Positions 41,502 through 60,288 of a stretch of DNA of 64,000 nucleotides are shown piece by piece (position 1 is the stretch's first letter; each line of letters begins with the position of its first letter). A program made the translations under genes and the position numbers. Below the pieces are notes generated by a model, which had not been told where the DNA came from, did no database searches, and saw only the letters and a program-made list of their open reading frames with translations. This stretch comes from an uncultured Chitinophagaceae bacterium. Its GTDB lineage: Bacteria; Bacteroidota; Bacteroidia; Chitinophagales; Chitinophagaceae. The DNA lies in the NCBI GenBank assembly GCA_903830285.1, contig CAIKTE010000116.1:1-64000 (forward strand), written 5' to 3'.

Positions 41502-41508
41502 ATAAAGT

Positions 41509-42912
41509 CTATTTCTTGATGTATGAACTTTCAAATCCTAATTTTTGTAAGCCATTCTTAATTTCGGGACAACTCATGAATAGCTTCCATAACAAACCTG
41601 TTCGATAATTTTCTATCATAACAATAATGGGTCCCTGATCAATGGCCAGATGCGATTTTGCGTACCAGTTTTTTGTTTCACTGAATCCGTCTACAAAACC
41701 ATAAGGGCTCCAGATCTTATCTCCCAGATCATAATAAAAATGTTTGAGTGCTTTCATTGAATATTCAGGAGTGTAAGGGAAAGAAGCTAAAGCAGCAGTT
41801 GGCTGTATCACAGACCTGTCTACTTCCGGACAATGTGCTACATAACCTTTATAACTATCTCCTGCTGTTAAACCCCAGCAATTTTCGCCGTATCCTTTAT
41901 AATGTTTAGGATTTTCGATGCAATAAGCACGATTGATCAATGTGTGATTCTTGGTCTGCATCGCATAATCAATTCCATGATCATCTTTCAATGCATTAGG
42001 GTCAATCCCCATAAATGTATATTGTTCAAAGAACAAGGGTCCACCCTTCTCAAAATTTCCAAGCGGCAATTCAATACCATAATATTCCTTTCCGTTTCTC
42101 CAACTCGAGCTTTTTACCCATGAATTTTCGTATAGTTCTTTTGAGATAGAATGATAAGGCGATGATGCTGCCACGATATAAGTGATCAAAGCTTCATCCC
42201 ATCCATATACCGGGAAATTCATATTAAAATCATTGGCAGGACTCCAATGCCAATACAATAATTTGTTTTCACCTTTACTATGCCAGTTCCAATCGGCAGC
42301 ATCCCAGATCTGCTCTACCCTTTTCCTAAAATACTTTTCTTCAATCGTATTACCGTTAAAATATTGTCTTGCTGAAAGCAGTCCCATCATTAAATACGAT
42401 GTCTCCACAATATCAGCACCATCATCCAATCTTCCGAAAGGAATTGTTTTGCCGGTTGCTCCATTCATGAAATGCGGATAGATCCCATGATAACAATCTG
42501 CTTTTACTAAAAAATCAACCATCTTGATGAGACGCCTGATAGCAGTATCTCTATCGATCCATTTTCTTTCTGTTGCTACAATGATTGACATGATCCCAAA
42601 GCCAGAACCTCCGATCGCACAAGCTTCTTCCCCAAAACTTGACTTACTTAAATTAGGTTCATCATCAGCCTCATTGATATAATCCCAATAATATACTGCT
42701 TTCACAGTATTGCTTCTTTCTCTTGCCAACCCGCTTACAGGATGTCCATAATGCCAGAAATAACGGAAGGTTTGTTTTTGAACAATATCAAGCAAAGCAG
42801 AATCTGAAATATTTTTAATGATGCCAACCGCAGGAATGGAATTTTTTCTTTGTGCTGTTATAGGAAGCACAAAAGAAACAGAGATCAGTATAAAAAATAT
42901 TCTTCGAAACAT
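41509..42912 (-). CDS. GH144-family endo-beta-1,2-glucanase-like protein, copy 1
   Basis: A 467-residue exported protein (signal 1-20, PITAQ) of the 'putative glucoamylase' PF10091 family. Characterised members from Chitinophaga are endo-beta-1,2-glucanases, CAZy GH144. Family hallmarks: DIVQKQTFRYFW near 42, GGSGFGIMSIIVATERKWI, PHFMNGATGKTIPFGRLDDGADIVETSYL (acidic cluster) and NCWGLTAGDSYKGY near 350. Compared with the next gene it has about 17 extra residues (YYWDYINEADDEPNL) before GGSGFG. It begins 1 bp after the stop of copy 2, so the two are translationally close. Secreted to the periplasm. Confidence 0.85.
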   Translation of the reverse strand: MFRRIFFILISVSFVLPITAQRKNSIPAVGIIKNISDSALLDIVQKQTFRYFWHYGHPVSGLARERSNTVKAVYYWDYINEADDEPNLSKSSFGEEACAIGGSGFGIMSIIVATERKWIDRDTAIRRLIKMVDFLVKADCYHGIYPHFMNGATGKTIPFGRLDDGADIVETSYLMMGLLSARQYFNGNTIEEKYFRKRVEQIWDAADWNWHSKGENKLLYWHWSPANDFNMNFPVYGWDEALITYIVAASSPYHSISKELYENSWVKSSSWRNGKEYYGIELPLGNFEKGGPLFFEQYTFMGIDPNALKDDHGIDYAMQTKNHTLINRAYCIENPKHYKGYGENCWGLTAGDSYKGYVAHCPEVDRSVIQPTAALASFPYTPEYSMKALKHFYYDLGDKIWSPYGFVDGFSETKNWYAKSHLAIDQGPIIVMIENYRTGLLWKLFMSCPEIKNGLQKLGFESSYIKK

Positions 42913-42913
42913 T

Positions 42914-44236
42914 TTATTTGGTTTGATAATCGAAACCTAATTTATTCAAGCCTTTTTTTATTTCCGGGCAGCTCATGAATAGTTTCCATAATAAACCTGA
43001 CCTGTAATTTTCTATCATCACGATCTCCGGTCCCTGATCAATAGCCAGATAGGATTTTGCATACCAGTTTTTGGATTCATTGAATGCATCTATAAAACCA
43101 TATTTTCCCCATAATTTATCGCCTAAGTCAAAATAAAAATGCCTCAATGCTTTCATTGAGAATTCAGGTGCATAAGGGAATGCCGACAATGCTGCTGTCG
43201 GAGATATGGTACCATGATCATTGGTTGGCGAATGTGCATCATATCCGGTATAGGTGTCGCTGGCTGTTAATCCCCAGCAGTTCTCTCCATATCCCTTAAA
43301 CTTTTTAGGATTATCTATGCAGTATGCATGATTGATCAATGTGTGATTTTTATTCTGCAGCCAGTAATCGGCATATTGGTCTTTCAAACCGTGCGGATTC
43401 AAACCTAAGAAAGAATAGTGAGAAAAAAATAAAGGCCCTCCATAATCAAAACCTAATGGCAATTCATATCCATAAAAGGTCTTCCCATTTTTAAAGAAAC
43501 TTCCTTGCGCCCAGCCTTTATGATATACCGCACTGCTTACCGGATAACGCTCAGCTGATGCTGCCAGTATATACATGATCAAACATTCATTAAATCCATG
43601 TACCGGAAAATTCATCGCCCATCCGTTATTAGGACTCCAGTGCCAATACAAAACTTCTTCTCCTTTTGTAAACCAGTTCCATTCAATTTCATCCCACATC
43701 CAGCCGATCCTGTTTCTCAGTTCTGTTTCAGTTTTATTGTTTGCATTAAAATATTGCCGGGCACATAATAAGCCTTCAAATAAATATGAGGTTTCAACCA
43801 GATCTGCTCCGTCATCTTTTCTTCCGAATGGAATGGTCTTTCCTGTTGCACCATTCATCCAATGCGGAAATGCACCGTGATAGGAATTTGCTTTTTCAAG
43901 GAATAGCATCATTTTTAATAAATGCTTTGCTGCAGAATCTCTGGTGATCCATTTTCTTTCTGTTGCAACAATAATACTCATCACACCAAATCCTGTTCCT
44001 CCGGTTGTTACAACCTCATCACCATAACCAAATGTTGCATTACTTCTTTCTCTGGCCATGCCACTGATTGGATGTGCAAAGTCCCAGAAATATCTGAATG
44101 TTTGTTTTTGAACGATATCCAATAATTGATCATCAGATAAATCATTTTGAATACTGCTCTTATTTTGTGCAATCGTAGTTGCATATAAAAACAGAACTGT
44201 AACAATGGTTAGAAGAAGTTTATTTACTCTAATCAT
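42914..44236 (-). CDS. GH144-family endo-beta-1,2-glucanase-like protein, copy 2
   Basis: A 440-residue paralogue of copy 1 with a signal peptide ending TIAQ. It shares DIVQKQTFRYFWDFAHPISG, GGTGFGVMSIIVATERKWI, PFGRKDDGADLVETSYLFEG and ENCWGLTASDTYTGYDAH. It lacks the short insertion of copy 1 and is the most compact of the three. The acidic cluster in DDGADLVETS is intact, so it should be active. Located 39 bp after the GH30 gene in the operon. Confidence 0.85.
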   Translation of the reverse strand: MIRVNKLLLTIVTVLFLYATTIAQNKSSIQNDLSDDQLLDIVQKQTFRYFWDFAHPISGMARERSNATFGYGDEVVTTGGTGFGVMSIIVATERKWITRDSAAKHLLKMMLFLEKANSYHGAFPHWMNGATGKTIPFGRKDDGADLVETSYLFEGLLCARQYFNANNKTETELRNRIGWMWDEIEWNWFTKGEEVLYWHWSPNNGWAMNFPVHGFNECLIMYILAASAERYPVSSAVYHKGWAQGSFFKNGKTFYGYELPLGFDYGGPLFFSHYSFLGLNPHGLKDQYADYWLQNKNHTLINHAYCIDNPKKFKGYGENCWGLTASDTYTGYDAHSPTNDHGTISPTAALSAFPYAPEFSMKALRHFYFDLGDKLWGKYGFIDAFNESKNWYAKSYLAIDQGPEIVMIENYRSGLLWKLFMSCPEIKKGLNKLGFDYQTK

Positions 44237-44275: not shown

Positions 44276-45745
44276 TTACCAGATATAAGTGCCAACACCA
44301 CCTCCTGTTAATGCTGTTGTTACCCATTTACCATTTATTCGAATATTAAAAGATGCAGCATTGGTTCCATCATTTTCAACTATTAAAACTTTTTGCCCTG
44401 AGGGGGTTAAGAATGCAACGGCATTCAAATTGCCGGAATTACTACTGTAGATCCTTACAGAGCCAGCAGGAACAAATTTCGAAGCATGTGCAACTATATA
44501 ATATCCAACATTTCTCGTAATGGTTAAACCGATCGTTAATGCACCTTTGCAGGTATTACAACCACCAACAGTATGCGGTCCAAAACTTGGATCGTTGGCT
44601 AAATTCCATTCCAATGCATTGCGACTCCAGTTTCGCATTGAACCGATGATCACATTCTTTAAATGCCACATTAGATCGCCGCCAAAATTTCCTGTTGAAG
44701 CAGTGTATTGTTCCGTAAAATATACTTGCTTGGCCGGATATAAATTATGTACTGTTGATAATGCACTGATATCTCCTGCATACAAATGAAATGCAGAACC
44801 GTTTACAAATGCAGCAGCAGCCGCATCGCTTAATATGGTTGTTGGATATGTGGGTTGATCGCAGTTATGATCGTACACAATTATTTTTGTTGTTATTCCG
44901 GCCGACTGAAATGCAGGACCAAGATTATTTTTAATGAAATTAGCTTCTTGTATTGCGGATAAAACCATACTTGGATTATTTCCTGGATTCAATGGTTCGT
45001 TTTGAGGAGTGATGGCATCAATGGTAATTCCCTGTGCCTTCATTGCCTGAATATATTTTACAAAATACTGAGCATACACATTATAATATTGTGTTTGCAA
45101 ACCTCCGCCGATAGAACTGTTATTGTCTTTCATCCAAACAGGTGGTGACCATGGTGAACCCAGGATCTTTATGTTGGGATTGATCGCAATGATCTGTTTT
45201 AATAAAGGGATCAAATCAGTCATATCATTATTCAAACTGAAATTTGCAAGAGTAGGATCCGTTTGTCCGTTCGGCATATCATCATAACTAAAAACAGTTG
45301 CATTCAGGTCAGATGCACCGATACTTATTCGCAAATAACTGATGCCGATCGAAGTGGAAGATGTTCCAAATAATTCCTGCAAAAGATTTGCTTTATCCGA
45401 ACTGCTTAATTGATTGATCACAAATGCGCTTCCTCCCGTTAATGTAAAACCAAAGCCATCGATGGTTTGAAACGTTTGTGTTGAATCAACATCGATAAAG
45501 GGATTACTGTTTGCAACCGTACCAAAAGAAAGAATACCTGATTGCTTTTGCAAAAGAACAGATTGATCATTTGAAGTATACCAAAAATCAACATTGTTTA
45601 CAAGTACCGGAGGTATTACAGGTGTAACCGGAGTTATAGGAGTAGTGCTATCGTTATTAGGTTTTGAGCAATTGGCATTAGCCAATCCAACTGAAATAAA
45701 AATAACTAAGAAAAATAATTTTTGTTTGATATTATTGATGTTCAT
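44276..45745 (-). CDS. GH30 glucanase (possible endo-beta-1,6-glucanase)
   Basis: A 489-residue GH30 enzyme. After the signal and a Pro/Thr linker (PITPVTPVIPPV) come IDGFGFTLTGGSAFVINQL near 94, ILGSPWSPPVWMKDN near 195, the acid/base Glu in AITPQNEPLNPGNN near 246 and the nucleophile in QVYFTEQYT near 345, then a C-terminal beta-sandwich. Cys26 might carry lipid (ANANC), but the residue before it is unusual. The closest known activities are glucosylceramidase-like and beta-1,6-glucanase (GH30_3); the latter fits a glucan locus. Sits between GH144 copies 3 and 2. Confidence 0.85.
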   Translation of the reverse strand: MNINNIKQKLFFLVIFISVGLANANCSKPNNDSTTPITPVTPVIPPVLVNNVDFWYTSNDQSVLLQKQSGILSFGTVANSNPFIDVDSTQTFQTIDGFGFTLTGGSAFVINQLSSSDKANLLQELFGTSSTSIGISYLRISIGASDLNATVFSYDDMPNGQTDPTLANFSLNNDMTDLIPLLKQIIAINPNIKILGSPWSPPVWMKDNNSSIGGGLQTQYYNVYAQYFVKYIQAMKAQGITIDAITPQNEPLNPGNNPSMVLSAIQEANFIKNNLGPAFQSAGITTKIIVYDHNCDQPTYPTTILSDAAAAAFVNGSAFHLYAGDISALSTVHNLYPAKQVYFTEQYTASTGNFGGDLMWHLKNVIIGSMRNWSRNALEWNLANDPSFGPHTVGGCNTCKGALTIGLTITRNVGYYIVAHASKFVPAGSVRIYSSNSGNLNAVAFLTPSGQKVLIVENDGTNAASFNIRINGKWVTTALTGGGVGTYIW

Positions 45746-45763: not shown

Positions 45764-47446
45764 TTACAAATACGGTGCTGTGAACCCTAACTCTTTCATT
45801 CCTGTTTTTATTTCAGGGCAGCTTGTGAATAGATTCCATAGCAATCCTGTTCTGTAATTTTCGATCATAATGATCTGAGGTCCCTGATCTATTGCCAGAT
45901 AAGAAGAAGCAAACCATAGATTATTTAAACTGAATGCATCCACAAAACCATAGTTGCCCCATATCTTATTTCCCAATTTGTAATAAAAGAATTTCAATGC
46001 ATTCATTGATTGTACAGGCGTATACGGCATAGATGATATCGCGGCTGTTGCTGCAATCACACTAACATCGTTTGTTGGTGAACTTGCAGTATATCCTCCG
46101 GAAATATCGCTAGCTGTTAATCCCCAGCATGTATTACTGTATCCAAAATAACCTTTAGGATTTGCTACACAATAATTATAATTGATCTGAGTATGCGCAG
46201 TATTTTGTGTTTGATAATTAGCATATGCATCACTTAATCCTGTGGGATTGATCCCTAAGAAAGAATAATGCGCAAAGAATAACGGGCCGCCATAGGACTG
46301 CCCCAAAGGCAAAACAGTATTATAATAAGTTGCGCCGTTTTTTATCGCACCGCTATTGGCCCATCCTTTATCATACACATCTTTTGCAATGGCATGGGTT
46401 GTTGATGAAGCAGCTAAAACATAAGTGATCAATGCTTCATTCCAGCCACTTACTGGAATGCTCCAGATATCTGCCGTTGCAGTATAGGAAGGATTGTATT
46501 GCCAGTAAATGGCTTTTTGAGAGCCGTTCTGTGTAAACCAATTCCAGTCAACTGTATTCCAGATCGAATTGATACTATCTCGTAATTTCATTTCATTGGC
46601 ATCAGTACCGCTATTGAAATACTGTCTGGCGCAAAGTAATCCCTGCAATAAATAAGATGTCTCCACAATATCAGCGCCGTTATTATTTCCGAATGCAACA
46701 GTAGCACCTGTAGAACCGTTGATCCAATGCGAAAATGCGCCATGCCATCTTTGGCATTTAGTAGTCAGAAAATTAGTGATCGTGTTCAATCTTGTCACAG
46801 CATCTGTTCTGGTTATGAATCCTCTGTTTGCTGCTACGATCATGGACATGATACCAAATCCCGAACCACCGGAAGTAACCACATTATTATCACCATTATT
46901 TCTTTCCAATGCCATCCCGCATACAGGATGACCAAAGTCCCAGAAATATTTGAATGTTTGTTTTTGAACCAGGTCAAGCAGAGCACTATCTGATATCTGT
47001 GTGAATTTATCGGATGAATCGATCTTTGTATTGAATGCAATACTGGTTCCGCTAGTAAGCGATCCTCCTGCTGCCGATTTTAATGTAGTTGCAACAGATG
47101 CTATGTATTTATTAAGAAAGCTTAATGCAGAAGACGGTTGCAATAATAGGATACTGTCACCACTTTGGTAAGAAACAGTACATGCAATTGTGGCTCCGGA
47201 TACAGCATCATTCAACAAAATATTTCCGCTTACTGATTGCCGATTGATCGCTGTTGAGAACTGAAATTTAAGAATAGGACTTGTACCGATATTATAAGCA
47301 TTTGTTGGGGATATGATCCCGTCAACACTATACGATGTCATCGTAAAATTAGAGGGCGCAACAATAGGCTGTGTTGTATCTGAAGATTTATTACAACCTG
47401 CAAATACAATCATTAATAAATATGCACAACAAATTTTCGCTCTCAT
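45764..47446 (-). CDS. GH144-family glucanase-like lipoprotein with N-terminal Ig-like domain, copy 3
   Basis: A 560-residue protein made as a lipoprotein (lipobox FAGC, Cys18). An N-terminal bacterial Ig-like (Big_5-type) domain covers about 32-145, and the GH144 catalytic domain follows from SDSALLDLVQKQTFKYFWDF near 155. It keeps GGSGFGIMSMIVAANRGFI, a GADIVETSYLLQG acidic cluster and NTCWGLTASDISGGY. Unlike copies 1 and 2 it is anchored by lipid and carries a spacer domain, which suits a surface endo-enzyme that makes the first cuts. Starts 11 bp after the FG-GAP/ASPIC gene. Confidence 0.86.
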   Translation of the reverse strand: MRAKICCAYLLMIVFAGCNKSSDTTQPIVAPSNFTMTSYSVDGIISPTNAYNIGTSPILKFQFSTAINRQSVSGNILLNDAVSGATIACTVSYQSGDSILLLQPSSALSFLNKYIASVATTLKSAAGGSLTSGTSIAFNTKIDSSDKFTQISDSALLDLVQKQTFKYFWDFGHPVCGMALERNNGDNNVVTSGGSGFGIMSMIVAANRGFITRTDAVTRLNTITNFLTTKCQRWHGAFSHWINGSTGATVAFGNNNGADIVETSYLLQGLLCARQYFNSGTDANEMKLRDSINSIWNTVDWNWFTQNGSQKAIYWQYNPSYTATADIWSIPVSGWNEALITYVLAASSTTHAIAKDVYDKGWANSGAIKNGATYYNTVLPLGQSYGGPLFFAHYSFLGINPTGLSDAYANYQTQNTAHTQINYNYCVANPKGYFGYSNTCWGLTASDISGGYTASSPTNDVSVIAATAAISSMPYTPVQSMNALKFFYYKLGNKIWGNYGFVDAFSLNNLWFASSYLAIDQGPQIIMIENYRTGLLWNLFTSCPEIKTGMKELGFTAPYL

Positions 47447-47457
47447 CAGACAACCAT

Positions 47458-50400
47458 TTATTTTGATATTCCGTAAAATTCAATTCCCGCATTATTCTTC
47501 GCAACCATTAATACGTTACCATATTTTGCAGTGTGTATCCATTTCAAATCCCTCGCCTGTCCTTTTGTATCGATCACTTTCGTTTTATCCATACTGATCT
47601 TATTCTTCGATGCCGTAATATCAAATGTTGTTACAGCAGCAGCATCGTATGAACCTTCATAAGGGATCACATCCAGAAAATTTCCGGCTGATATATAGTT
47701 ATTGGTATTCGGGATCTTCTGGAAAGAGAATATGGGTGATAGTTGTTGATCAAAAGGAAGGTCCTGCTTTTTGAAATTTCCTCTCCCGTCATTGATAAAA
47801 CAAGCGGAACCTAATGTTTCGGCTTTAAGTTCAATATAATCTTTAAACAGATCGAAGAACATATACTGAACTGTTTTTCCGGCAACTTCACTATAAGTTA
47901 AATAGTGTTTTTTCAATACCGGTAATGCCTGCTCTAATTCATCTTTAGGTAAGAATGTATATTCCTTGCCATCAATAGTATAGCACATGATCTGTTCTAA
48001 AGTAGAATTAAAATCAAAATCTTTTACATACAATTTTAGTGGTCCATTTTTTCCTGCCCATAGTTTAGAATTATGTCCCCAGTTGCCTGCCAATATATCC
48101 GGATACCCATCACCATTCACATCTGTTACAAACAGACCCTGCCATAATCCTGTAGAATTAGGGATCTCTGTTTGTACAAATTTCCCTTTGTGATTCATGA
48201 ATATTTTTAATCCCATCCATTCTCCGGTTACAATCAGATCGGGCCATCCGTCATTATTCAGATCTGTAAATGAAGCAGAGGTAACCATACCCAGTTGCAT
48301 CAGGTTCATCGTTTTCATATCTGCGATATCAAACTTTCCCTTGCCATCATTGATATACAGATAAGAGTTTTGCGGCAGTCCATATTTTTGCTGATCTGTA
48401 AACATTCCAATAAAAACATCCAGGTCACCGTCATGATCGATATCTGCGACTGCAATGCATGATTTATTCCAGAATTCCTGTTGAAATGCTTTTGCAGATA
48501 AACTAAAATGTCCTTTCCCATCATTGATATAAAGTCTGTCGGAATTGGCGATACCATTAGACGGGATTTCATTTCCTCCACCCACTACCCATAGATCAGG
48601 AAAACCATCCCCATTCGCATCAAAGAAAATGGCATCTACATCTTCGCATATTCTAAACCTGTTGAATAATGCAGTATCTGATGAAATGAAATTTCCAGTG
48701 GGTTGCTGTATCATGAGTGCACCGGGCTGTCCTTTTGCGCCGCATACATAAAAATCTTCCAACCCATCTTTATTAACATCTCCTACTGCGATCTTAGGAC
48801 CACGTGTACTTTCTTTATGAGGGATCAGATATTGCAAATTGAAATCATTGAAATCATTTTCCTGATGTTTCCAATCGCATTTGATCTGATCAGTAATATT
48901 TACCAATGTTTCTTTTTTAGGAGGGAAGAAACTATTATAATCAAAATTACCTGCAGCATCTTTCTGAGATACCGTTAATTGTTTATTGATCGCAACATTT
49001 TTTAAGACCTGATATTTCTGATTAGGCCATACGATCAAAACACTATCAATATTCTTTGTTGTATCTAACCCAAAATGAAGTTTTGTTTCTGTTGAAGATT
49101 GAAAACCTCTGGTAAGCATTAATTCTTCATACTGCATTTTATCTTTTGTGAACAGATATGCTTTCGAACCAATTCCAAATTTATTATATCCATCGCCTTT
49201 AAAATTTATGGTAAGATGATTTTTATTTTGTGAATTATTTTTAAAGATGAGGGCTTTAGAATTAAGTGCATTCACTATCAAATCTAAATTGCCGGTATTA
49301 TTTAAATCAGCATAAGTTGCTCCGTTATAAAATCCTTTCTTATCAAATCCCCAATCTTTTCCAATATCATGAAACTGCCCGTTGCCATCGCCTTTATACA
49401 TAAAACAATAAGAACTTCCTTCAGGCATTTTATCTACTGTTACATCATCATATTTACTGGATGCATTTCTGTTTATTTGTGCTGCCAAACTTGAAACAAA
49501 ACGTATATAATCCAAGTCCACAGGCCGTTTTAAAATTCCGCTTGTAATAAAAAGATCTTTATTCCCATCATTATCAAAGTCGGCCATCAAAGGACTCCAA
49601 CTCCAATCAGTTGCCGATACGCCTGCTATCAATCCTATATCGCTAAAGCTTTTTCCGCTACCGTTATTTCTCTGTAAACAATTTCTAGAGAACTGAGGTT
49701 GATATCCATTATGCGTTATTTTAAAATCATAGATATCGCTGTGCTCATCACTTCCATATGTTTTTAAAGTTTTTTCATCAGGCGGAAGCATATCAACAGT
49801 AACTACATCCAATTGTCCATCGTTATTAAAATCGGCAATATCATTACCCATGCTGAAACGTGAATAATGATTAAAATGTTTAGCACCGCTTTCTGTAAAT
49901 GTGCCATCGCCATTATTAATATAATAATAATCGTTTTCGTGAAAATCATTTCCAATATAAATATCATCCCAACCATCATTATTCAGATCAGCAACAGCTA
50001 ATCCCAAACCATAACCAAGACTACTTTGATTGATACCTGCTTCTTTAGAAACGTTTGTAAATTTTCCGGTGGTCTTGATATCATTTCTAAATAAATAATC
50101 ACCTGCATTAGGGTCGAAACCTCTGCGGTGACTTGTATCTACAATATTTTGGTAAGGTTGCTGCGATTCATTCAAAATAAAACAATCCAAATAACCATCG
50201 TGATTATAATCGAAGAAAGCGGTTTGTACAGTATAACCCGAAAAATCTAACCCGTATTTAGCAGCACTTTCAGTAAAAGTACCATCCCCATTATTTATAA
50301 AAAGCTCGTTGTGTCCGTTTAATCCATAAGCATTGTTTATTGAAGAAACATAAATGTCTAACAATCCATCGCCGTTTATATCTGCCATTGTAGAACCTGT

Positions 50401-50742
50401 GCACCAGTCTGCAGTGCCCGCCACGCCTGCTTTATCGGTAATATCTTCAAACTGATAATTCCCCTTATTCAAATACAATTTATTATGGCCTTTACTGTTA
50501 CCGGTAAAATAAATATCCGGTAACCCGTCATTATTTATATCGCCAACAGATACACCACCGCCATTGTAATAATAGAGATAATATAAAATGCCGAAACCTT
50601 TTTTATTCTCTAAATTGTTTTCAAAATTGATATTTGTTTTGGAAGAAGACAAACTTGTAAACCCCCTGTCTGATTGCTTACAGGAAATAAAAAATAGGCC
50701 TATAAAAAGATACACACTAAAAAATATTTTCGCTTTAACCAT
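47458..50742 (-). CDS. Large FG-GAP/VCBS and ASPIC/UnbV lipoprotein (CRTAC1-like)
   Basis: A 1094-residue lipoprotein (lipobox FISC, Cys21). It is filled with FG-GAP/VCBS calcium-binding blades such as GDINNDGLPDIYFTGN, DINGDGLLDIYVSS and DLNNDGWDDIYIGND. In the middle is an ASPIC/UnbV domain (about 515-590; GIGSKAYLFTKDK ... LHFGLDTTKNIDSVLIVWPN), then a second run of blades (DVNKDGLEDFYVCG, DIDHDGDLDVFIG, DLNNDGWPDLIVTG). Proteins of this build are common in Bacteroidota next to SusCD and are thought to be surface-exposed, but no function is proven. It lies between a heptaheme cytochrome and the glycosidases, 11-50 bp from each. Confidence 0.88.
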   Translation of the reverse strand: MVKAKIFFSVYLFIGLFFISCKQSDRGFTSLSSSKTNINFENNLENKKGFGILYYLYYYNGGGVSVGDINNDGLPDIYFTGNSKGHNKLYLNKGNYQFEDITDKAGVAGTADWCTGSTMADINGDGLLDIYVSSINNAYGLNGHNELFINNGDGTFTESAAKYGLDFSGYTVQTAFFDYNHDGYLDCFILNESQQPYQNIVDTSHRRGFDPNAGDYLFRNDIKTTGKFTNVSKEAGINQSSLGYGLGLAVADLNNDGWDDIYIGNDFHENDYYYINNGDGTFTESGAKHFNHYSRFSMGNDIADFNNDGQLDVVTVDMLPPDEKTLKTYGSDEHSDIYDFKITHNGYQPQFSRNCLQRNNGSGKSFSDIGLIAGVSATDWSWSPLMADFDNDGNKDLFITSGILKRPVDLDYIRFVSSLAAQINRNASSKYDDVTVDKMPEGSSYCFMYKGDGNGQFHDIGKDWGFDKKGFYNGATYADLNNTGNLDLIVNALNSKALIFKNNSQNKNHLTINFKGDGYNKFGIGSKAYLFTKDKMQYEELMLTRGFQSSTETKLHFGLDTTKNIDSVLIVWPNQKYQVLKNVAINKQLTVSQKDAAGNFDYNSFFPPKKETLVNITDQIKCDWKHQENDFNDFNLQYLIPHKESTRGPKIAVGDVNKDGLEDFYVCGAKGQPGALMIQQPTGNFISSDTALFNRFRICEDVDAIFFDANGDGFPDLWVVGGGNEIPSNGIANSDRLYINDGKGHFSLSAKAFQQEFWNKSCIAVADIDHDGDLDVFIGMFTDQQKYGLPQNSYLYINDGKGKFDIADMKTMNLMQLGMVTSASFTDLNNDGWPDLIVTGEWMGLKIFMNHKGKFVQTEIPNSTGLWQGLFVTDVNGDGYPDILAGNWGHNSKLWAGKNGPLKLYVKDFDFNSTLEQIMCYTIDGKEYTFLPKDELEQALPVLKKHYLTYSEVAGKTVQYMFFDLFKDYIELKAETLGSACFINDGRGNFKKQDLPFDQQLSPIFSFQKIPNTNNYISAGNFLDVIPYEGSYDAAAVTTFDITASKNKISMDKTKVIDTKGQARDLKWIHTAKYGNVLMVAKNNAGIEFYGISK

Positions 50743-50790
50743 ATATTACAATTAACGTTTATCAAATTTATTTTGAAGATGCTACACCTA

Positions 50791-52017
50791 TTACTGTTTG
50801 TTTTGTAACAGATATTTTTTTGTTTCTTCCGGATATACAGAAATAAAATGCGAACGCATAGTCGCTGATGTTGGCAGATCATCGCCCTGCAATAAAACCA
50901 TGATGGCTTTAGAAGGTAATTCAGGCATGTGGCAATCAATACAATTTTGAACTATCTTATTTCCAACCTGTGCTTTTTCCTTACAAAAGTTACCATTTTT
51001 TTCTGAATGACAAGTCATACAACGCTGAGAAAATACTGTTAATTTACCCGTTTCATTTTCATGAGAATTATGACAGGTATTACAGGTCATTTGACTCTTG
51101 ATAAAGCATTTACTGGCTATCAATCTGCCATACGAATTGCCATGCACATCAATATCTTCAACAGCTTTATTGGTTGTGTCCATCGTGAAGAAATCTGACA
51201 GCTTATCTCCCGCACTAAAACTAAAAGAAGGTTTAGATTTAGTTAATTTACCCCCATGACATAACCTGCAGTTTTCCAGGCTTTGTTCTCTTGTAAATAA
51301 TTTTGGATCGATGATATATCTCCCCTTCTTTTCATTGGGATTTTTTTGATGAAAATCTACGTGCTGTGCTGCCGGACCATGACATCTTTCGCAATCCACT
51401 CCGTATACGATCTTTGTTTTAGAGAAATCTTCTCTAATTGAATCTTCAGAGGATGTTTTTTCAAAGAAAGTGCTATGACATTCTAAACATCGGGAAGTTA
51501 TGGGCCTGTTAAAAACAACTTTATTGGAATATCCCGGACTATTGGACCATTGATGTGCCGAAGTAAAATAAGTGAGCGGTAATTGAAATAAATTATTCTT
51601 TCTCCAGAACAAAAATGTTTGCCCGCGTTTGCCTGAACCTACAGTGATATCAAAAGGCTGAGCCATTTTTTCAGTTCCATTGATATAGGCCACCTGATAA
51701 AAAAGATCTCCTCTTTTCTCTGCAGCTACATACACGTTGGGTTTAAATGAGAATGTATTTTGTCCCACTGCAAAACTGCCTTTAATATTTTTTTGATCTG
51801 ATCTTTGTGAAGTAAGAAAATGCGCTGTTTGTACATGCGAATCATAGATCGCTTTATGACAATTGATACAGGTTGAAGAACCTGCATATTGTTCATATTT
51901 TATTCCGGACTTAACCTTTTTTGATTCCCGGTCAATACATGTAATAAATAAAAAAATACAGGGAATCAGGACGAAAAAAATCTGTATAGATCGCCTGAAT
52001 TGTATTATTCTAAACAT
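50791..52017 (-). CDS. Heptaheme c-type cytochrome
   Basis: An exported electron carrier with seven CxxCH heme-binding motifs: CINCH (50-54), CLECH (177-181), CERCH (209-213), CRLCH (250-254), CNTCH (312-316), CMTCH (333-337) and CIDCH (359-363), in a protein of about 408 residues. The N-terminal hydrophobic segment ends FITC, a weak lipobox (Thr at -1), so it may be lipid-anchored. I chose the ATG at 52017 over an in-frame TTG three codons upstream. Spacing recalls cytochrome c554-like proteins; extra His residues can serve as distal ligands. First gene after an internal terminator in the glucan locus; the ASPIC lipoprotein starts 48 bp further on. Redox partner unknown. Confidence 0.9.
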   Translation of the reverse strand: MFRIIQFRRSIQIFFVLIPCIFLFITCIDRESKKVKSGIKYEQYAGSSTCINCHKAIYDSHVQTAHFLTSQRSDQKNIKGSFAVGQNTFSFKPNVYVAAEKRGDLFYQVAYINGTEKMAQPFDITVGSGKRGQTFLFWRKNNLFQLPLTYFTSAHQWSNSPGYSNKVVFNRPITSRCLECHSTFFEKTSSEDSIREDFSKTKIVYGVDCERCHGPAAQHVDFHQKNPNEKKGRYIIDPKLFTREQSLENCRLCHGGKLTKSKPSFSFSAGDKLSDFFTMDTTNKAVEDIDVHGNSYGRLIASKCFIKSQMTCNTCHNSHENETGKLTVFSQRCMTCHSEKNGNFCKEKAQVGNKIVQNCIDCHMPELPSKAIMVLLQGDDLPTSATMRSHFISVYPEETKKYLLQNKQ

Positions 52018-52069
52018 AAGCAGCAATTGAATGCAAGAGATACTTTAGGGCTCAATAAATACGATATAA

Positions 52070-52105
52070 AAAAAAGAAGGGCTGAAAAATTGCTTCAGCC
52101 CTCTT
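52070..52105 (-). terminator. Terminator between the SusCD-LamG and cytochrome-glycosidase parts
   Basis: Stem AGGGCTGAA / TTCAGCCCT, extended by AAGA/TCTT, loop AAATTGC. On the minus strand it is followed by a long T run. It lies about 40 bp past the LamG gene stop and splits the locus into two possible transcripts. Confidence 0.85.
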
Positions 52106-52145: not shown

Positions 52146-53003
52146 TTATTTCTTGCTATTGAATAATGCTAAAACATCAGAAGCTGACAATGCTGTACCA
52201 TACAATCTGAATTGATCAATTTGACCATCCAGATTTCCCATCCAGGTATTTGCATCATGTGCTTGTTGACCGGGTCCACCAACTGTAAAGCCGTTAGCTC
52301 CTGAGAAATCAACTGCACCCAATGGTCCTCCTACTTTATCTGTATGGAACAGTACTCCGTCAATATAAGCCAGCAAAATAGAGTTACTGGATGTATAGGT
52401 AAATGCCAGATGATGCCAGGTACCATCCAGAACTTTAGGCATCCTGTCTTCAGTGGTAGTATGTTTTGTATATTCAACCCATTGGTCCATTACATAAAAT
52501 TTGCCTGCAGCCAATGCTGTTGTACTTGGATTACCGGCATCTTCAAACTCAAAGAAGAGTTTTAAATTGGTCCAGCTATAACCTGAATTATTTAATGCAA
52601 AAGCATAATTCGTTCCGCTTCCAGCTGCCTGTGGTGTCTTTTTGATCCAGAAAGCCACTGTAAAAGCTGTTGTTGTTGAAGTGAAGTCGTTAGCTGACGG
52701 ATATTGAATAAAACCGGTTCCACCGCTACCCTGATAACTATTACCAGAAATTCCTCCGGTAACAAAAGTTCCGGAGCCATTTACTACTCCAAAATTTGCT
52801 TTGATACTATCTACCGCAGCCATCGATTTATTGGCAGTTGTTCCGTCATAAGCCGCATAAAATTTAAGCGGACCTCCGGGAAGGCTCGCATCTTGAGGAT
52901 AGTCACCTAACGCAGGTCTGTCCATTTTTTGACAACCGGTTATGATCGTGCCCAAAACCAAGATGGAAAGGGCAGCTTGAGTTGCTTTGTTTATAAAATT
53001 CAT
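52146..53003 (-). CDS. LamG/concanavalin-like lipoprotein in the SusE position
   Basis: A 285-residue lipoprotein (lipobox ITGC, Cys24) with one LamG/concanavalin-like jelly-roll domain (about 85-280): TAFTVAFWIKK near 118, DGTWHHLAFTYTSSNSILLAYIDG near 200 and DGQIDQFRLYGTALSASDV at the end are typical strands. Its place right after SusD is where surface glycan-binding proteins (SusE/F or SGBP) are found, so it probably binds the polysaccharide at the surface. About 75 bp separates it from susD. A terminator follows. Confidence 0.87.
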   Translation of the reverse strand: MNFINKATQAALSILVLGTIITGCQKMDRPALGDYPQDASLPGGPLKFYAAYDGTTANKSMAAVDSIKANFGVVNGSGTFVTGGISGNSYQGSGGTGFIQYPSANDFTSTTTAFTVAFWIKKTPQAAGSGTNYAFALNNSGYSWTNLKLFFEFEDAGNPSTTALAAGKFYVMDQWVEYTKHTTTEDRMPKVLDGTWHHLAFTYTSSNSILLAYIDGVLFHTDKVGGPLGAVDFSGANGFTVGGPGQQAHDANTWMGNLDGQIDQFRLYGTALSASDVLALFNSKK

Positions 53004-53079: not shown

Positions 53080-54654
53080 TTAATAATTAGGATTTTGTAC
53101 TAATACACCTCCTGACAAATTGATGGCAGGCTGTGGAATAGGATACAAAGCATTTTTACTCTGATAGCCTAAGCTTCCCAATGCAGATGGTGCATCGATA
53201 CCGTCAGTAGCAGGTGTCCACCTTACTAAATCATAGAATCGAACTCCCTCCATTGCAAATTCCCATCTTCTTTCTTTCTTGATCGCTGTTCTCATTTGAG
53301 CCTGATTCGTAAATGGTATAGCAGGTAAAACCGCATTACCACCTCTTGCTCTGGCCCTAATTAATTCCAAATTTTTAGCAGCTGTTGCACCATCACCTAA
53401 TTCATTGCTTGCTTCAGCCAACATTAATATCACATCAGCATAACGCAGGATCCTGTGATTGATCCAATCAGCACCACCATTACTATTTATTTTTCCGGTA
53501 TACTGTCTCATAGAAGGATCAGAATATAATTTCTTATTCCAATACGGCTGATCCAAAGATGCACCCGGAGCATATGGAGGAAGTGTTGCACCATAACCGC
53601 CCTGAGCAGGTCCGCCATCAAATTGGCCTGAATATAAAATGGTCATGGATTTTCTTGGATCTGTTGAATCCCATGCATTTTGCAGCACCTGTGTAGGAAC
53701 ATTCCATCCCCAACCTAAATTCCATGCAACAGTTGCACCACCTTGTCTTATATTTTGAGATGTACCCCAACCGTCTTGTCCATTATCATTTGTACCGTTA
53801 GCACCACAATTAGCCTGCATTTCAAATATGGATTCTACACCGTTTTTACCGGCACCATTCAAACCGTCTTTCCAAATATCTGTAAAGTTGGATGCGAGTC
53901 CATATTGTCCGGAACCAATCACTGTATTACAAAGAGAAACCACTTTAGCCCATTGTTGTCTGAACAAATAGGTTTGTGCCCATAATGTATTGGCAGCACC
54001 ACTGGTTAATCTGCCGGGATATCTATTAGTTCCTCCAACCTGCCAATTCAAAGGCAACATGGTTGAAGCAGCACTTAGATCAGCATCAATTTGAGCGTAT
54101 AAGTCAGCGATCGTTGCTTTTGGTTTATTACCTGCAGCTGCATTGGTATAATAGAAATTGATCAGCGGAACCTGACCATAAGCTTTTACCAATTCAAAGA
54201 AAGAATAAGCTCTGAAGAAATGAGCTTCTCCAATATTTCTTACGGAAGCAGGATCTGTAACTTTTAATGAATCTGCCCAATACAGTTCCTTGTTACATAA
54301 ATTAATCATGTAAAAATGATCATTCCAGTAAGTATCGGTTGCCCAATCATCTTTGGTGTATTGGAATGTTTCAAACTCAGTATTGATCTCTGCACCATCG
54401 GTCGTACTACTTCCTTTCTGTGCATCGTCATCTCTGATACTGTGAAAATCTATCCAGGGCAAAGAAGAGAATCCTGCATATCCTCTAAGTGTATTATATA
54501 GACCTAAACTTTGAGCCTCTAAAGCCCCCTGATTTAAGTCGTTAAGCGTTGCAGTTAAGGGTTGCCTATCAAGAAATTTACTGCAACCCGCTATTGTTAG
54601 AAAAAAGGTAGCTACCAGTAGTAAGCTCCCAAAAGTTTTAATATTTTTTTTCAT
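53080..54654 (-). CDS. SusD/RagB family outer-membrane glycan-binding lipoprotein
   Basis: SusD proteins cap the SusC barrel and deliver glycans. About 524 residues; the start at 54654 (MKKNIKTF) places the lipobox IAGC with Cys24, followed by SKFLDRQPL, a typical SusD opening. The TPR-like helices show NIGEAHFFRAYSFFELVKAYGQVPL near 140, and the C-terminal family block RRWEFAMEGVRFYDLVRW is near 470, with YPIPQPAINLSGG at the end. Four extra codons upstream (from 54666) are open. Downstream partner of the SusC gene, whose stop is at 54678. Confidence 0.96.
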   Translation of the reverse strand: MKKNIKTFGSLLLVATFFLTIAGCSKFLDRQPLTATLNDLNQGALEAQSLGLYNTLRGYAGFSSLPWIDFHSIRDDDAQKGSSTTDGAEINTEFETFQYTKDDWATDTYWNDHFYMINLCNKELYWADSLKVTDPASVRNIGEAHFFRAYSFFELVKAYGQVPLINFYYTNAAAGNKPKATIADLYAQIDADLSAASTMLPLNWQVGGTNRYPGRLTSGAANTLWAQTYLFRQQWAKVVSLCNTVIGSGQYGLASNFTDIWKDGLNGAGKNGVESIFEMQANCGANGTNDNGQDGWGTSQNIRQGGATVAWNLGWGWNVPTQVLQNAWDSTDPRKSMTILYSGQFDGGPAQGGYGATLPPYAPGASLDQPYWNKKLYSDPSMRQYTGKINSNGGADWINHRILRYADVILMLAEASNELGDGATAAKNLELIRARARGGNAVLPAIPFTNQAQMRTAIKKERRWEFAMEGVRFYDLVRWTPATDGIDAPSALGSLGYQSKNALYPIPQPAINLSGGVLVQNPNY

Positions 54655-54677
54655 ATAATGGTTCATTTAAAATATTA

Positions 54678-57600
54678 TTAAAATGTTACATTCAGACCGA
54701 AGGTTGTAACCATTGGTATGGCACCACCTCCATTATCATATCCGAATGCAGTAGCATCACCACCATATTCAGGACTATAGCCATTATTATGTTTCCATGT
54801 CTTTAAGTTCTGAATATTAGCAAATAACCGCAGGTTTGTAACTTTACATTTTGCTAATATTTTTGGATCAAGTGTATACCCTAATTGAAGATTTCTGATT
54901 CTGAAATAACTTCCATCTTCAATATTGTAGGTAGATCCATTATAGTTAATTCTGTCTGCCTGACTAATGATCGGTTCCCAATTAGAGGTACCGGCACCAT
55001 GCCATCTGCTGTTTTTGAATGCAGCATAGTTTACTCTCTGGAAAGGAGATTCAAGAGATCCCCAAGTTCTGAAGATACTGTTGCCATAAACACCACCTAC
55101 GTCAATACCCAATGTGAATCTCTTATAGGTAAGATTGATGGAACCACCATACATGAACTTAGGTGTTGGATTTCCGATTACTGATCTGTCATCAGAAGTT
55201 ACAGCACCATCAGGGCCTGTTCCACCCGGACCGGCGATATCTTTGAATTTAAAATCACCGGGTCTGTATGCTCCGATTGATGAAGCGATCGGTGAACCCA
55301 AGATATCAGCATAGGATTGATATAAACCAGCTACGGTATAACCATAGAAAGAACCGATAGGTTGTCCAACCATTGTTCTGCTTTCTGCACTACCATTATT
55401 CTGGAAGGCTCTGCTTAAGAAGCCGGTAGGAAGATCACTGGCTAAGCTTACCACTGTATTTTTCATGAATGTGATATTGCCGCCAATTTGCAGAGAGAAA
55501 TCTTTGTTTATTTTTTGATTCCATGTGGCAGCTAATTCTTCACCCGTGTTCTTTAAACTACCACCATTGATCAATTCATTCTGTAAACCCTGTGCTGATC
55601 TGTCAACATAGGTCATCAGGTCGTTGGTCACTTTATTGTAATAGTTGAATTCAAAATGTAAACGGTTATTGAATGCATTACCTTCTATGCCAATTTCAGA
55701 AGCATTTACAGTTTCCCATTTTAAATTAGGGTTGGCAATATAGGACTGCTGAGCAGCAGAAAAAATATTGGTTCCGAAAATAGCATTGATCCCTGTATTC
55801 AAATTAGGATATGACGGATATGGAAGTGGTGTTCCATCCAAATAAGAAGCGGTTTGATTACCCAGCACACCAATAGAACCTTTCAATTTCAGATAATCAA
55901 ATGCTTTTTGATTTTTCATGAAATCTTCTTTACTGATCTCCCATCCTGCACCTAAAGCCCAGAATAACTGGTTACGATTTTGAGCAGGGATCTGAGAAGA
56001 TGCATCATTACGTAAAGAAGCATTTAAATAGTATTTGCTTTTGTAATTATATAAAATACGACCTAATGCAGAGACTGTTGAATATTCACTTTGAGCAGAA
56101 TTGGTATTGGTTGGATCCACTACACCCCAAGGACCTGAACTTACATACCAGAATCTTGGATCGTTAGGTATAGGTAAACTTGCAGCGTCTGTTCCCTGTT
56201 TCAAAGCAGTTTGTCTGCCAAAATAGCCACTGTAATAAGTTGTAAAACCACCTAAAGCAGTAAAGCTATGGTCGCCCAATACTCTCTTGAAAGTCAGCAT
56301 ATAATCTTGCTGATATTTTTTCCAGTCATTTACATTTTCAGTAAATGCTGTTTGTGAAGAAGATAGATAAGGCGTATTGTTCATCGGATTAAATGCATAA
56401 TACATTGGTGTATAATGACGTTTATCCTGCGTACTTACATCCCCATACAAAGTTGCTTTGAAGTTAAAATACTTTGCAAAATTCACATCTATATAAACAC
56501 TACCTACATATCTGTTCTCATAATCTTTTGTTCTATCCCATTCGTTTTGTAATTGTAACAATGGGTTAACCACACCTGCAGATTGTAATGCAACATCTAG
56601 TCCTGAATAAATACTTTGTGGTCCGCTAATACCTGTATAAGGGTCTGCCACTGTAAATGTTTGGGGTATAGCAGATACCTGTGGCATTACTTTTCTTGCT
56701 TGATCTAATATCTGGGTTGCATCATAAGGGTTATGTGTTCTGGTGGTATTAAAATTAACGCCCAGTTTAATGCCTTTAGTCACTTTAAATTCATCACTTA
56801 ATGATAGGATGATCTTGCTTAATTCTTGATTTTTCACGATCCCCTGATCAGAAATATAACTGGCACCAAAATTGAATTTGTTCTTTTCTGTTGTTCCTGC
56901 AATACTTAAACCGGTATTGCTGAAATTACCAACTCTTGTAACAGCATCGATCCAATCTGTATTGGCAGTTAAAGCCGAATAGTCAGGAGTAGCAACACCG
57001 TTGTTTGCATTTTCTTCAGCAAATAAAGTACTGAATTGTGCAGCATTGGACATTTGAATTTTATCAACCAATTTCTTAAATCCATAAGAAGTATTGAAGT
57101 TGATAGTAGTTTGTCCGGCTTTAGCTTTCTTTGTAGTGATCGCGATCACCCCGGTAGCACCTTTCACACCAAATATCGCCAATGAAGAAGGATCTTTCAA
57201 TATTTCGATTGATTCTATATCATTGGGGTTCAAATAATCGATATTATCATTAAATATACCGTCCACTACATATAAAGGATGTACCTGTCCGATACTTACT
57301 GTACCGCGGATACGAATATCCGGAGCAGCTCCGGGAGTTCCGTTATTTACAACAGATAAACCTGCAACCTTACCTTGTAAAGAGGCCACAGGGTTTGTGT
57401 TGGGTCTGTCGGCAACTTCTTTTCCCTGCACTTTAACGATAGAACCGGTCAAATCTCTTTTATTAGCAGAGCCATAACCGATCACAACTACCTGATCCAG
57501 TACTTTTTCAGATTCCTTTAATGTAACAATATTCAAATCTTTTTTGCCGCCGATCGCAACTTCTTTCTGATCATAACCAACAGAGGAAATCACTAATGTG

Positions 57601-58115
57601 GCGTTATCGGGAGCAACAATAGAAAAATAACCGTTCACATCGGCTGATGTAACAACAGCAGTTCCTTTTACTCTAACTGTTGCCGCAGGAACCGGTTCGC
57701 CATTAGATCCAAGCACTCTACCCGTTACTTTTATATCAGCAATGATGTTATCTTTTGAGGATAAGACGATCAGTTTGTGTCCCAGTTCTTTATACGTAAG
57801 ATTGGTACCCGCAAAAATGCTGTTCAATACGTCTGTTACCAGCGCATTTTCAACATTCACATCTATTTTAGGGTTAGTCATTGAAATGGCATCATCGTTA
57901 TACAAAAAACGATAACTGCTTTTTTTCTCAATTTGAAGCAATACTTTTTTAAGTTCTACAGAATTTAATTTAAGGCTAACTTTTGATTGAGCCAACCCTT
58001 TCGCGGAGACTTGAACTAGCGAAATGAGTAGTATGGCAATGGTTAGTTTCATAAACAGCAATACTTTAAGAATGCCCGTTTTGATAAATGCATTCTCAGG
58101 TTTAGATTTTTTCAT
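54678..58115 (-). CDS. SusC/RagA TonB-dependent transporter with STN signalling domain
   Basis: A 1145-residue outer-membrane importer for oligosaccharides. Order: signal peptide (about 1-45, VSAKGLAQ); STN domain (about 50-115, LKKVLLQIEKKSSYRFLY), which receives the signal from FecR-type anti-sigma proteins; carboxypeptidase-D-like domain (about 128-205, VRVKGTAVVTSADVNGYFSI); a plug with VVVIGYGSANKRDLTGSI and GVKGATGVIAITTKK; then a 22-strand barrel ending in FGLNVTF. The STN domain, with fecR and sigma genes directly upstream, shows regulation by trans-envelope signalling rather than a hybrid two-component sensor. Confidence 0.97.
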   Translation of the reverse strand: MKKSKPENAFIKTGILKVLLFMKLTIAILLISLVQVSAKGLAQSKVSLKLNSVELKKVLLQIEKKSSYRFLYNDDAISMTNPKIDVNVENALVTDVLNSIFAGTNLTYKELGHKLIVLSSKDNIIADIKVTGRVLGSNGEPVPAATVRVKGTAVVTSADVNGYFSIVAPDNATLVISSVGYDQKEVAIGGKKDLNIVTLKESEKVLDQVVVIGYGSANKRDLTGSIVKVQGKEVADRPNTNPVASLQGKVAGLSVVNNGTPGAAPDIRIRGTVSIGQVHPLYVVDGIFNDNIDYLNPNDIESIEILKDPSSLAIFGVKGATGVIAITTKKAKAGQTTINFNTSYGFKKLVDKIQMSNAAQFSTLFAEENANNGVATPDYSALTANTDWIDAVTRVGNFSNTGLSIAGTTEKNKFNFGASYISDQGIVKNQELSKIILSLSDEFKVTKGIKLGVNFNTTRTHNPYDATQILDQARKVMPQVSAIPQTFTVADPYTGISGPQSIYSGLDVALQSAGVVNPLLQLQNEWDRTKDYENRYVGSVYIDVNFAKYFNFKATLYGDVSTQDKRHYTPMYYAFNPMNNTPYLSSSQTAFTENVNDWKKYQQDYMLTFKRVLGDHSFTALGGFTTYYSGYFGRQTALKQGTDAASLPIPNDPRFWYVSSGPWGVVDPTNTNSAQSEYSTVSALGRILYNYKSKYYLNASLRNDASSQIPAQNRNQLFWALGAGWEISKEDFMKNQKAFDYLKLKGSIGVLGNQTASYLDGTPLPYPSYPNLNTGINAIFGTNIFSAAQQSYIANPNLKWETVNASEIGIEGNAFNNRLHFEFNYYNKVTNDLMTYVDRSAQGLQNELINGGSLKNTGEELAATWNQKINKDFSLQIGGNITFMKNTVVSLASDLPTGFLSRAFQNNGSAESRTMVGQPIGSFYGYTVAGLYQSYADILGSPIASSIGAYRPGDFKFKDIAGPGGTGPDGAVTSDDRSVIGNPTPKFMYGGSINLTYKRFTLGIDVGGVYGNSIFRTWGSLESPFQRVNYAAFKNSRWHGAGTSNWEPIISQADRINYNGSTYNIEDGSYFRIRNLQLGYTLDPKILAKCKVTNLRLFANIQNLKTWKHNNGYSPEYGGDATAFGYDNGGGAIPMVTTFGLNVTF

Positions 58116-59423: not shown

Positions 59424-59484
59424 GAGTATTGGTAAGGACACATAAGTTAAGAAAATCTACTAAAGGAAAGTTAAAATATTTTTC

Positions 59485-60072
59485 CTATTGCTTATTTGGA
59501 GGGAAATTGAATTCCTTTTTGAGGTCGAAGTTGATGGCATTACCGATCTTTTTAACCGCGATAGCCATTTGATTATCAATCGTTTTGACTGAAATATTAA
59601 GTAGATCTGCTATTTCCTTGTACTTTAATCCATCTTCCTTTACCAGTTTAAAGATCACTTTGCACCTGGGTGGAAGCATGGCAATGGCTGAATTGATGCG
59701 GTTGATCACTTCAGAAGTCATCATCATTTGTTCCGGGTTATATGAAATACTGGCGAGTGATAAGCTCATTTCATCCAATGAAACGACGTCTTTCCTGAAA
59801 TGACGTGACAAATAATTGAAAGAAGTGTTTTTAGTACTGATATATAGATAGAGTTTGAAATTATCTACATTGATCAGGCTATTCCTGTTTTGCCAAACTT
59901 TCATAAATACATCAGATACCACTTCTTCCGCCAATTCTTTATTCTTCAGTATCGATTGTGCAAATTGAACGAGTGCAGGCATAAATGCGACATACAACTG
60001 ACCAAAAGCAGCCTGATCATTGTGGATAGCAATTTTTCTTTGTAAGTCCTTTATTTCTTCTTTCGCAAGCAT
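59485..60072 (-). CDS. ECF sigma factor of the SusCD-associated type
   Basis: A 195-residue sigma-70 family protein: region 2 (about 20-90) with ELAEEVVSDVFMKVWQNR and NFKLYLYISTKNTSFNYL, region 4 (about 120-175) with a LPPRCKVIFKLVKEDGLKYK block and helix-turn-helix YKEIADLLNISVKTIDNQM. I start it at the ATG 60072 rather than a TTG one codon earlier. It is the first gene of the glucan locus and should be held inactive by FecR until SusC detects substrate. Confidence 0.95.
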   Translation of the reverse strand: MLAKEEIKDLQRKIAIHNDQAAFGQLYVAFMPALVQFAQSILKNKELAEEVVSDVFMKVWQNRNSLINVDNFKLYLYISTKNTSFNYLSRHFRKDVVSLDEMSLSLASISYNPEQMMMTSEVINRINSAIAMLPPRCKVIFKLVKEDGLKYKEIADLLNISVKTIDNQMAIAVKKIGNAINFDLKKEFNFPPNKQ

Positions 60073-60288
60073 CAACTCGTTATAAGAGAATCTAAATGAT
60101 AGATAAAGTTTCTAAGTTTGTATCGATTGTCTTGATCATCCCTATTTATACAAAGAGAAATAAAAAAAACAATTAGCTGCATGTTTAGGAAATATATTTA
60201 TCAACTATATATAATTATATGATTGATAAATATAGTCAGCGCTTCTCAAATACATACTAAAAATTTAACTGACTGGATAATTAATAAA

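Follow-up and report, generated by a model that had tools for sequence, protein, structure and literature searches.

Why should a locus for glucan uptake carry a multiheme cytochrome, when glycan-uptake loci are usually viewed as systems for binding, cutting and importing? We address this question for contig CAIKTE010000116.1 of an uncultured Chitinophagaceae bacterium (GenBank assembly GCA_903830285.1), of which positions 1 to 64,000 make up the window, that is, the whole stretch of 64,000 nucleotides that was analyzed. Here, a gene for a c-type cytochrome with seven CxxCH motifs and a downstream gene for an FG-GAP/ASPIC lipoprotein (hereafter ASPIC) lie within a glucan-utilization locus of the SusCD type (Table 1). 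A previous interpretation, made from the letters alone (the sequence-only reading), held that the redox gene is part of the glycan locus and that the two proteins form a pair that could work as a surface redox module. The first of these proposals is borne out by the survey of relatives described below. For the cytochrome itself, we tentatively favor the reading that it is an accessory periplasmic multiheme oxidoreductase of the Chitinophagaceae glucan-uptake (SusCD) locus.

The survey covered 394 genomes of the same family. The cytochrome was matched at E ≤1e-10 in 185 of these, a count that includes a longer type (mostly ~600-700 aa) that was kept apart. Of the 127 listed stronger matches (E ≤9e-59), 120 were fetched, the rest being six unfetched matches and the window itself; one fetched locus (L179), in which the cytochrome open reading frame was missed, was left out, leaving 119 readable loci. 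A first annotation with single sequences, which gives lower bounds, placed SusD within 2 kb of the cytochrome in 58/119 loci, ASPIC in 50/119 and LamG in 47/119, and none of SusC/D, ASPIC, glycoside hydrolase (GH) 144 or GH30 within 9 kb in 34/119. With better models, the order ECF-FecR-SusC-SusD-LamG-cytochrome-ASPIC-glycosidases (ECF, extracytoplasmic function sigma factor) was found repeated across many genomes, and those with a cytochrome of this locus type span 24 genera by their genus labels; one cultured species that has the locus is Flavisolibacter nicotianae (L050).

The SusD of the locus was matched at E ≤1e-100 in 117 of the 394 genomes. Among the 48 with a close orthologue (at least 608 bits), the cytochrome lies within 2 kb in 45 and on the same strand in 40, against a rough chance expectation of 2.1/48, derived from first-look SusD counts and genome sizes for genomes that are related. 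In one of the three exceptions the cytochrome is 3.5 kb off, in another (G337) the locus is split over contigs, and in the third (G163) the locus (L211) is without the cytochrome, which is found elsewhere (L091). Conversely, locus SusD is present in 50/50 genomes of the cytochrome clade that have their own tree row, and in 60/61 after addition of ten genomes with merged rows and the window genome; in the one genome where it was not found (G038), the contig breaks off next to LamG (L105). It is present in 57 of the other 333 genomes, in two of which (G122 and G128) the contig with SusD also has a cytochrome match that is partial and was not fetched. The association of the cytochrome with the glucan locus is not due to chance, and the conserved neighborhood that the sequence-only reading had anticipated in relatives is present.

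The placement of the cytochrome varies, although in most cases it stays within the locus. In a tree of 142 cytochromes, for which fifteen near-identical rows (ten of them from the clade) had been merged, all 56 LamG-type rows fall into one set of 65 (SH-aLRT 95; Shimodaira-Hasegawa-like approximate likelihood ratio test). A further tree, built from 64 rows of this set with six outgroup rows, contains 45 canonical cytochromes (same strand beside LamG), 7 inverted ones, 6 among GH genes (one clade) and 6 relocated out of the locus. In one clade, all 42 rows are canonical. The non-canonical placements branch off near the base of the tree, and the outgroup is placed among the rows with weak support, which leaves it uncertain in which direction the placement changed. 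Locus SusD is present in each of the six genomes whose cytochrome has been relocated, and the five loci among these that were read (L211, L212, L217, L229 and L230) lack the cytochrome. Many genomes have a locus of this kind without the cytochrome, which would suit a passenger gene held by long linkage by descent and without function in glucan use; that explanation is nevertheless very unlikely given the near-complete co-occurrence and the retention of the gene in the genome through inversion and relocation. A second cytochrome clade occurs in SusCD loci with GH16, GH5, GH3 or GH30 (L190, L192 and L196). Outside the family, a sample of the phylum contained the cytochrome at E ≤1e-50 in 20/395 genomes. 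In another family of the same class, an FG-GAP/ASPIC-like gene adjoins the cytochrome on the opposite strand in 4/6 short loci (L235, L237, L239 and L240); Pfam, run in that set on L237 only, returned FG-GAP and no ASPIC part from a gene truncated where the locus stops. Four relatives, planctomycete and acidobacterial, group together in one clade, and in three of them (L072, L074 and L075) ASPIC is no more than 9 kb away.

The cytochrome consists of 411 residues with CxxCH motifs starting at residues 53, 180, 212, 253, 315, 336 and 362. The sequence-only reading had counted the same seven motifs at 50791-52017; the open reading frame in fact begins at a TTG and spans 50791-52026, 52017 being an in-frame internal ATG. 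Shuffling the residues 20,000 times never produced more than two CxxCH, and exactly seven are present in 119/119 readable homologues. Pfam gave weak matches to Cytochrome_C554 and C7, and the nearest named relatives are from Chitinophagaceae metagenome-assembled genomes (90 and 70% identity). The AlphaFold model, with a predicted local distance difference test score (pLDDT) of 92.3, has OcwA of Thermincola potens (PDB 6i5b) as its best structural match (VIA Z 18.3, 308/411 residues, root mean square deviation 3.7), followed by the S-layer undecaheme protein 6qvm (Z 12.9) and MccA (Z 10.4); NrfA entries scored Z ~6, a range rich in chance matches. In Foldseek, OcwA was the sole match below E 0.001 (E 1e-10). 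Most of the predicted model therefore has the fold common to c554, NrfA, MccA and OcwA, and its beta region (residues 91-162) follows the first heme motif as an insertion, an arrangement shared with OcwA and MccA. It is not OcwA proper, which has nine hemes including a second open one, heme 5; OcwA is also set apart from the present protein by the latter's occurrence in Bacteroidota, its N-terminal anchor and its glycan locus, the comparison being one with a predicted model. Membership in the DmsE/GSU2203 decaheme families was rejected at NCBIfam scores far under the cut-off, as was kinship with the multiheme selenoprotein MccSep (single-sequence E 0.34; absent from the profile search).

Profile comparison aligned the second motif (C180-H184) to the second motif of c554 and to one OcwA motif. 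Heme 2 is the open active-site heme in c554 and OcwA, and OcwA has hemes 2 and 5 open and a beta-sheet domain in common with MccA, according to PMC6703420. Across 70 sequences (alignment A1, which took alternate sequences from a set of 139, leaving out acidobacterial L080, and added that of the window), the only invariant histidines outside the motifs are His 69, 222, 295, 322 and 393. As in the OcwA family, these potential distal ligands are fewer than the hemes, and five for seven hemes makes an open, catalytic heme plausible. Cys307 is also invariant; the idea that it is a leftover of OcwA heme 5 was discarded because the motif spacing misfits. From this accounting we infer five bis-histidine hemes, one that is possibly cysteine-ligated and one that is open. 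An open-heme, possibly Cys307-ligated periplasmic cytochrome might also be the built-in heme enzyme of the locus, performing redox conversion of a compound that the glucan binds or releases, which we regard as unlikely.

Other cytochrome sequences were noted along the way. The same genome encodes a second cytochrome on contig C16 (L209:3891-6128) of 745 aa with eight CxxCH and TPR/HEAT repeats, which is 27% identical to the window cytochrome over residues 16-368; Pfam showed no evident redox context among its neighbors other than an aldehyde dehydrogenase. The cytochrome matches in G706, G608, G556, G560, G725, G084, G337, G106 and G206 contain one stop codon within the aligned range, where the alignment may overrun the true end.

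The N-terminal hydrophobic helix of the cytochrome ends in a cysteine (residue 30 in the window) that is kept in 68/70 rows. The residue before it is Gln in 17 of these 68 rows, Arg in 16, Thr in 12, Lys in 10, Asn in 4 and others in 9, and Gly, Ser or Ala in none. Cys30 does not lie in a normal lipobox, and it is part of no heme motif. Among the neighboring proteins, a Gly, Ser or Ala precedes the cysteine in 78/82 SusD, 53/56 LamG, 45/51 ASPIC and 56/69 PF10091 sequences. Because the cytochrome lacks the normal lipobox, unlike SusD, LamG and ASPIC, the simplest reading is that it would be a periplasm-facing, signal-anchored protein, and the surface location given to it by the sequence-only reading is not borne out.

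ASPIC is a different case. Its N-terminus (...FFISC) forms a normal lipobox, and Pfam identified FG-GAP_3 in 10 stretches together with UnbV_ASPIC (E 7.7e-20), the domain composition of the CRTAC1/ASPIC family; the 1094-residue lipoprotein named as the next gene by the sequence-only reading is what is found. The best PDB match to its model (pLDDT 85.9) is murine CRTAC1 (9etn), with a template modeling score of 0.72 by target and 0.38 by query; the bacterial lipoprotein differs from CRTAC1 in having further FG-GAP repeats after the ASPIC domain. In 35 loci the cytochrome and ASPIC genes are same-strand neighbors, separated by a median of 8 bp. The pair is separable all the same: of 59 complete loci, in samples that were differently picked, both genes occur in 39, the cytochrome alone in 6, ASPIC alone in 11 and neither in 3. 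Ten incomplete loci were omitted from this count and the cytochrome-less loci were pre-selected, so that it shows separability rather than frequency.

These data bear on the proposal that the cytochrome and ASPIC form a surface module for extracellular electron transfer. The normal lipobox of ASPIC fits its surface part, and the close same-strand adjacency agrees with it, as does the closest solved fold, OcwA being a cell-surface terminal reductase (PMC6703420). The atypical N-terminus of the cytochrome and a pairing that is not obligate speak against it, and no supporting conduit was detected: MtrB/PioB (PF11854) had 0 matches in the 384-contig assembly, with a model that finds 1/14 control genomes, below cut-off, and NapC/NrfH had no match, with a model that responds in 1/14 control genomes only, so that each is weak evidence. 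Overall, we consider a surface redox module quite improbable.

The genome does contain two cytochrome-assembly, two NrfD-like and three COX1 matches, and ten matches to 3keto-disac_hyd. The COX1 and 3keto-disac_hyd matches would accord with an electron sink, in which imported oligosaccharides would be oxidized by a dehydrogenase, perhaps a glucoside 3-dehydrogenase belonging to the 3-keto pathway, that passes electrons through the cytochrome to oxidases; a GFO/IDH/MocA gene that ends one relative's locus (L132) points the same way. None of the ten 3keto-disac_hyd matches is on the window's contig, however, and no GMC or PQQ dehydrogenase was present among 30 neighbor proteins run on Pfam, a search that did not extend to the whole genome. 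We therefore judge an electron sink to be rather unlikely.

Genes similar to Haloperoxidase/PAP2 were found in 13 loci, in six of which they directly adjoin ASPIC (L054, L114, L145, L147, L153 and L179). Three of these Vanadium-haloperoxidase/PAP2-like genes are at L114:4629-5951, L147:10657-11982 and L054:10827-12164, two of them within LamG-type glucan loci. On contig C62 of the same genome as the window (L206:1387-16780), SusCD and three tandem ASPIC genes have a GH65-like and a haloperoxidase/PAP2-like gene nearby. Handling of peroxide or other reactive species by the cytochrome together with such enzymes would explain this proximity, but only two of the six loci are of the LamG type, the window's locus has no such gene, and three of four haloperoxidase-like proteins run on Pfam fall below cut-off, leaving this explanation distinctly unlikely. 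Elsewhere in the genome, on contig C74 (L207:8551-13763 and L208:1151-4510), ASPIC is followed by a protein with the hydrazine synthase (HZS) alpha middle domain; the cluster also has a beta-propeller plus di-heme-peroxidase-like protein and, further on, two ABC-type substrate-binding proteins. A similar gene order is reported for HZS-like homologues in PMC12758564.

In the reading that we tentatively favor, the cytochrome would be a signal-anchored, periplasm-facing oxidoreductase from the c554/NrfA/MccA/OcwA lineage, reacting probably at one or more open hemes, that of the second motif (C180-H184) among them. Electrons would pass between it and the aerobic respiratory chain, and its substrate, once the glucan locus is turned on, would be a small redox-active compound encountered in the periplasm while glucan is being imported. 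For its part, ASPIC would be a separate surface lipoprotein, probably for binding or as a scaffold and not an electron carrier.

Several observations weigh against this reading. Because the genomes are related, they do not count as independent cases, and the tree allows a single origin for the main arrangement. No dedicated electron partner was recognized in the window's locus. The cytochrome may be an atypically processed lipoprotein of this phylum, and among GH30 proteins from these loci the cysteine follows a Gly, Ser or Ala in only 20/46. In addition, 49 of the 69 genomes with a distant SusD (<608 bits) have no heptaheme match among the matches listed; the cytochrome is therefore not essential for glucan uptake. 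Nineteen of the 69 distant-SusD loci were fetched, picked for having no listed cytochrome beside them, and none was seen in the stretches fetched. Of these 19, L215, L221, L222, L226 and L228 are incomplete or without a recognized glycosidase and L219 is without LamG; 14 of the genomes have no heptaheme match among those listed, and the L228 genome has its cytochrome on another contig, between GH30 genes (L115).

The sequence-only reading had correctly placed the two genes between SusCD-LamG and the glycosidases, but missed a hairpin in the 119-bp gap between LamG and the cytochrome (128 bp to the ATG), which divides SusCD-LamG from the cytochrome-ASPIC-glycosidase segment. A strong hairpin is present in 28/41 of the equivalent gaps of relatives, followed in 24 by at least 4 T, against 0.4/41 in shuffles; 9/41 have the strict terminator form. 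None was found in 35 cytochrome-ASPIC or 95 SusC-SusD gaps, which are shorter, and other gaps contain some: 14/70 for SusD-LamG (3 with T), 11/49 for FecR-SusC (none with T) and 5/19 for LamG-ASPIC. The hairpin reads as the putative end of the SusCD-LamG segment, an attenuator rather than a mark of the cytochrome, and its position ahead of the cytochrome suggests that the locus may be expressed unevenly. A sigma-70 promoter scan was uninformative (52 found vs 51.4 in shuffles).

The remaining parts of the locus (Table 1) are those of a SusCD-type polysaccharide utilization locus, with adjacent SusC and SusD, a regulator and glycosidases identified by Pfam. The six glycosidase genes with short spacers were described accurately before: neighboring genes from the cytochrome through GH3 are 1 to 48 bp apart, except for one pair that overlaps by 26 bp, and the 48 bp separate the cytochrome from ASPIC. 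PF10091 was the only Pfam family matched by the Glycoamylase proteins, with no NCBIfam match; the label GH144, and hence beta-1,2-glucan as substrate, is an assumption drawn from PF10091. Apart from the locus, the minus strand has an open frame of 2282 aa at 25515-32363.

Table 1 Features of the glucan-utilization locus in the window, in order of transcription.
Feature	Position	Strand	Basis and remarks
ECF sigma factor	59485..60075	-	Pfam Sigma70_r2, Sigma70_r4_2; many relatives have one in equal position
FecR-type anti-sigma factor	58275..59441	-	Pfam FecR, FecR_C
SusC-type TonB-dependent transporter	54678..58115	-	Pfam Plug, CarbopepD_reg_2; STN 28.0 bits (cut-off 28.4)
SusD lipoprotein	53080..54666	-	Pfam SusD_RagB, SusD-like_3
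LamG (Laminin_G_3) lipoprotein, putative glycan-binding	52146..53003	-	Pfam; Gly/Ser/Ala before lipid Cys in 53/56 homologues
Terminator-like hairpin, LamG/cytochrome gap	52077..52103	-	11 pairs, then T run
Heptaheme c-type cytochrome, predicted N-terminal signal anchor and OcwA/MccA-like fold	50791..52026	-	7 CxxCH; AlphaFold model
FG-GAP/ASPIC (CRTAC1-like) lipoprotein, 1094 aa	47458..50742	-	Pfam; CRTAC1 match of model
Glycoamylase-domain (PF10091, GH144-like) enzyme + Big_5	45764..47446	-	Pfam
GH30	44276..45745	-	Pfam; best NCBIfam endo-1,6-beta-glucanase BT3312, 379.5 bits vs cut-off 700
Glycoamylase-domain enzyme	42914..44236	-	Pfam
Glycoamylase-domain enzyme	41509..42912	-	Pfam
GH43 + F5/8 type C domain	39720..41534	-	Pfam
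GH3 beta-glucosidase	37419..39704	-	Pfam; NCBIfam BglX model above its cut-off
GH125, locus membership uncertain	35821..37251	-	Pfam; 167 bp past GH3

The locus resembles known SusCD loci under ECF/FecR control in having ECF, FecR, SusC, SusD, a LamG lipoprotein and glycosidases ordered on one strand, and differs from them by the conserved multiheme cytochrome, the ASPIC protein and the hairpin after SusCD-LamG. No description of this gene set was found in the literature searched, including the available parts of PMC12175321 and PMC3174227. A parallel is found in Verrucomicrobia, where planctomycete-specific cytochromes (PSCyt) near glycan or sulfatase genes are linked to carbohydrate use by genomic context, as here (PMC5615132); those are described as having PSCyt domains, some with carbohydrate-binding modules, in which they would differ from the present protein.

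The retention of a cytochrome with a single type of locus, even where the gene has been inverted or relocated, suggests a tie between redox chemistry and glycan use in these genomes. Were it the locus's own heme enzyme, glycan use in many Chitinophagaceae would include redox chemistry as an integral step. The gene set provides a concrete, testable case for a question shared with the cytochromes found close to glycan genes in Verrucomicrobia.

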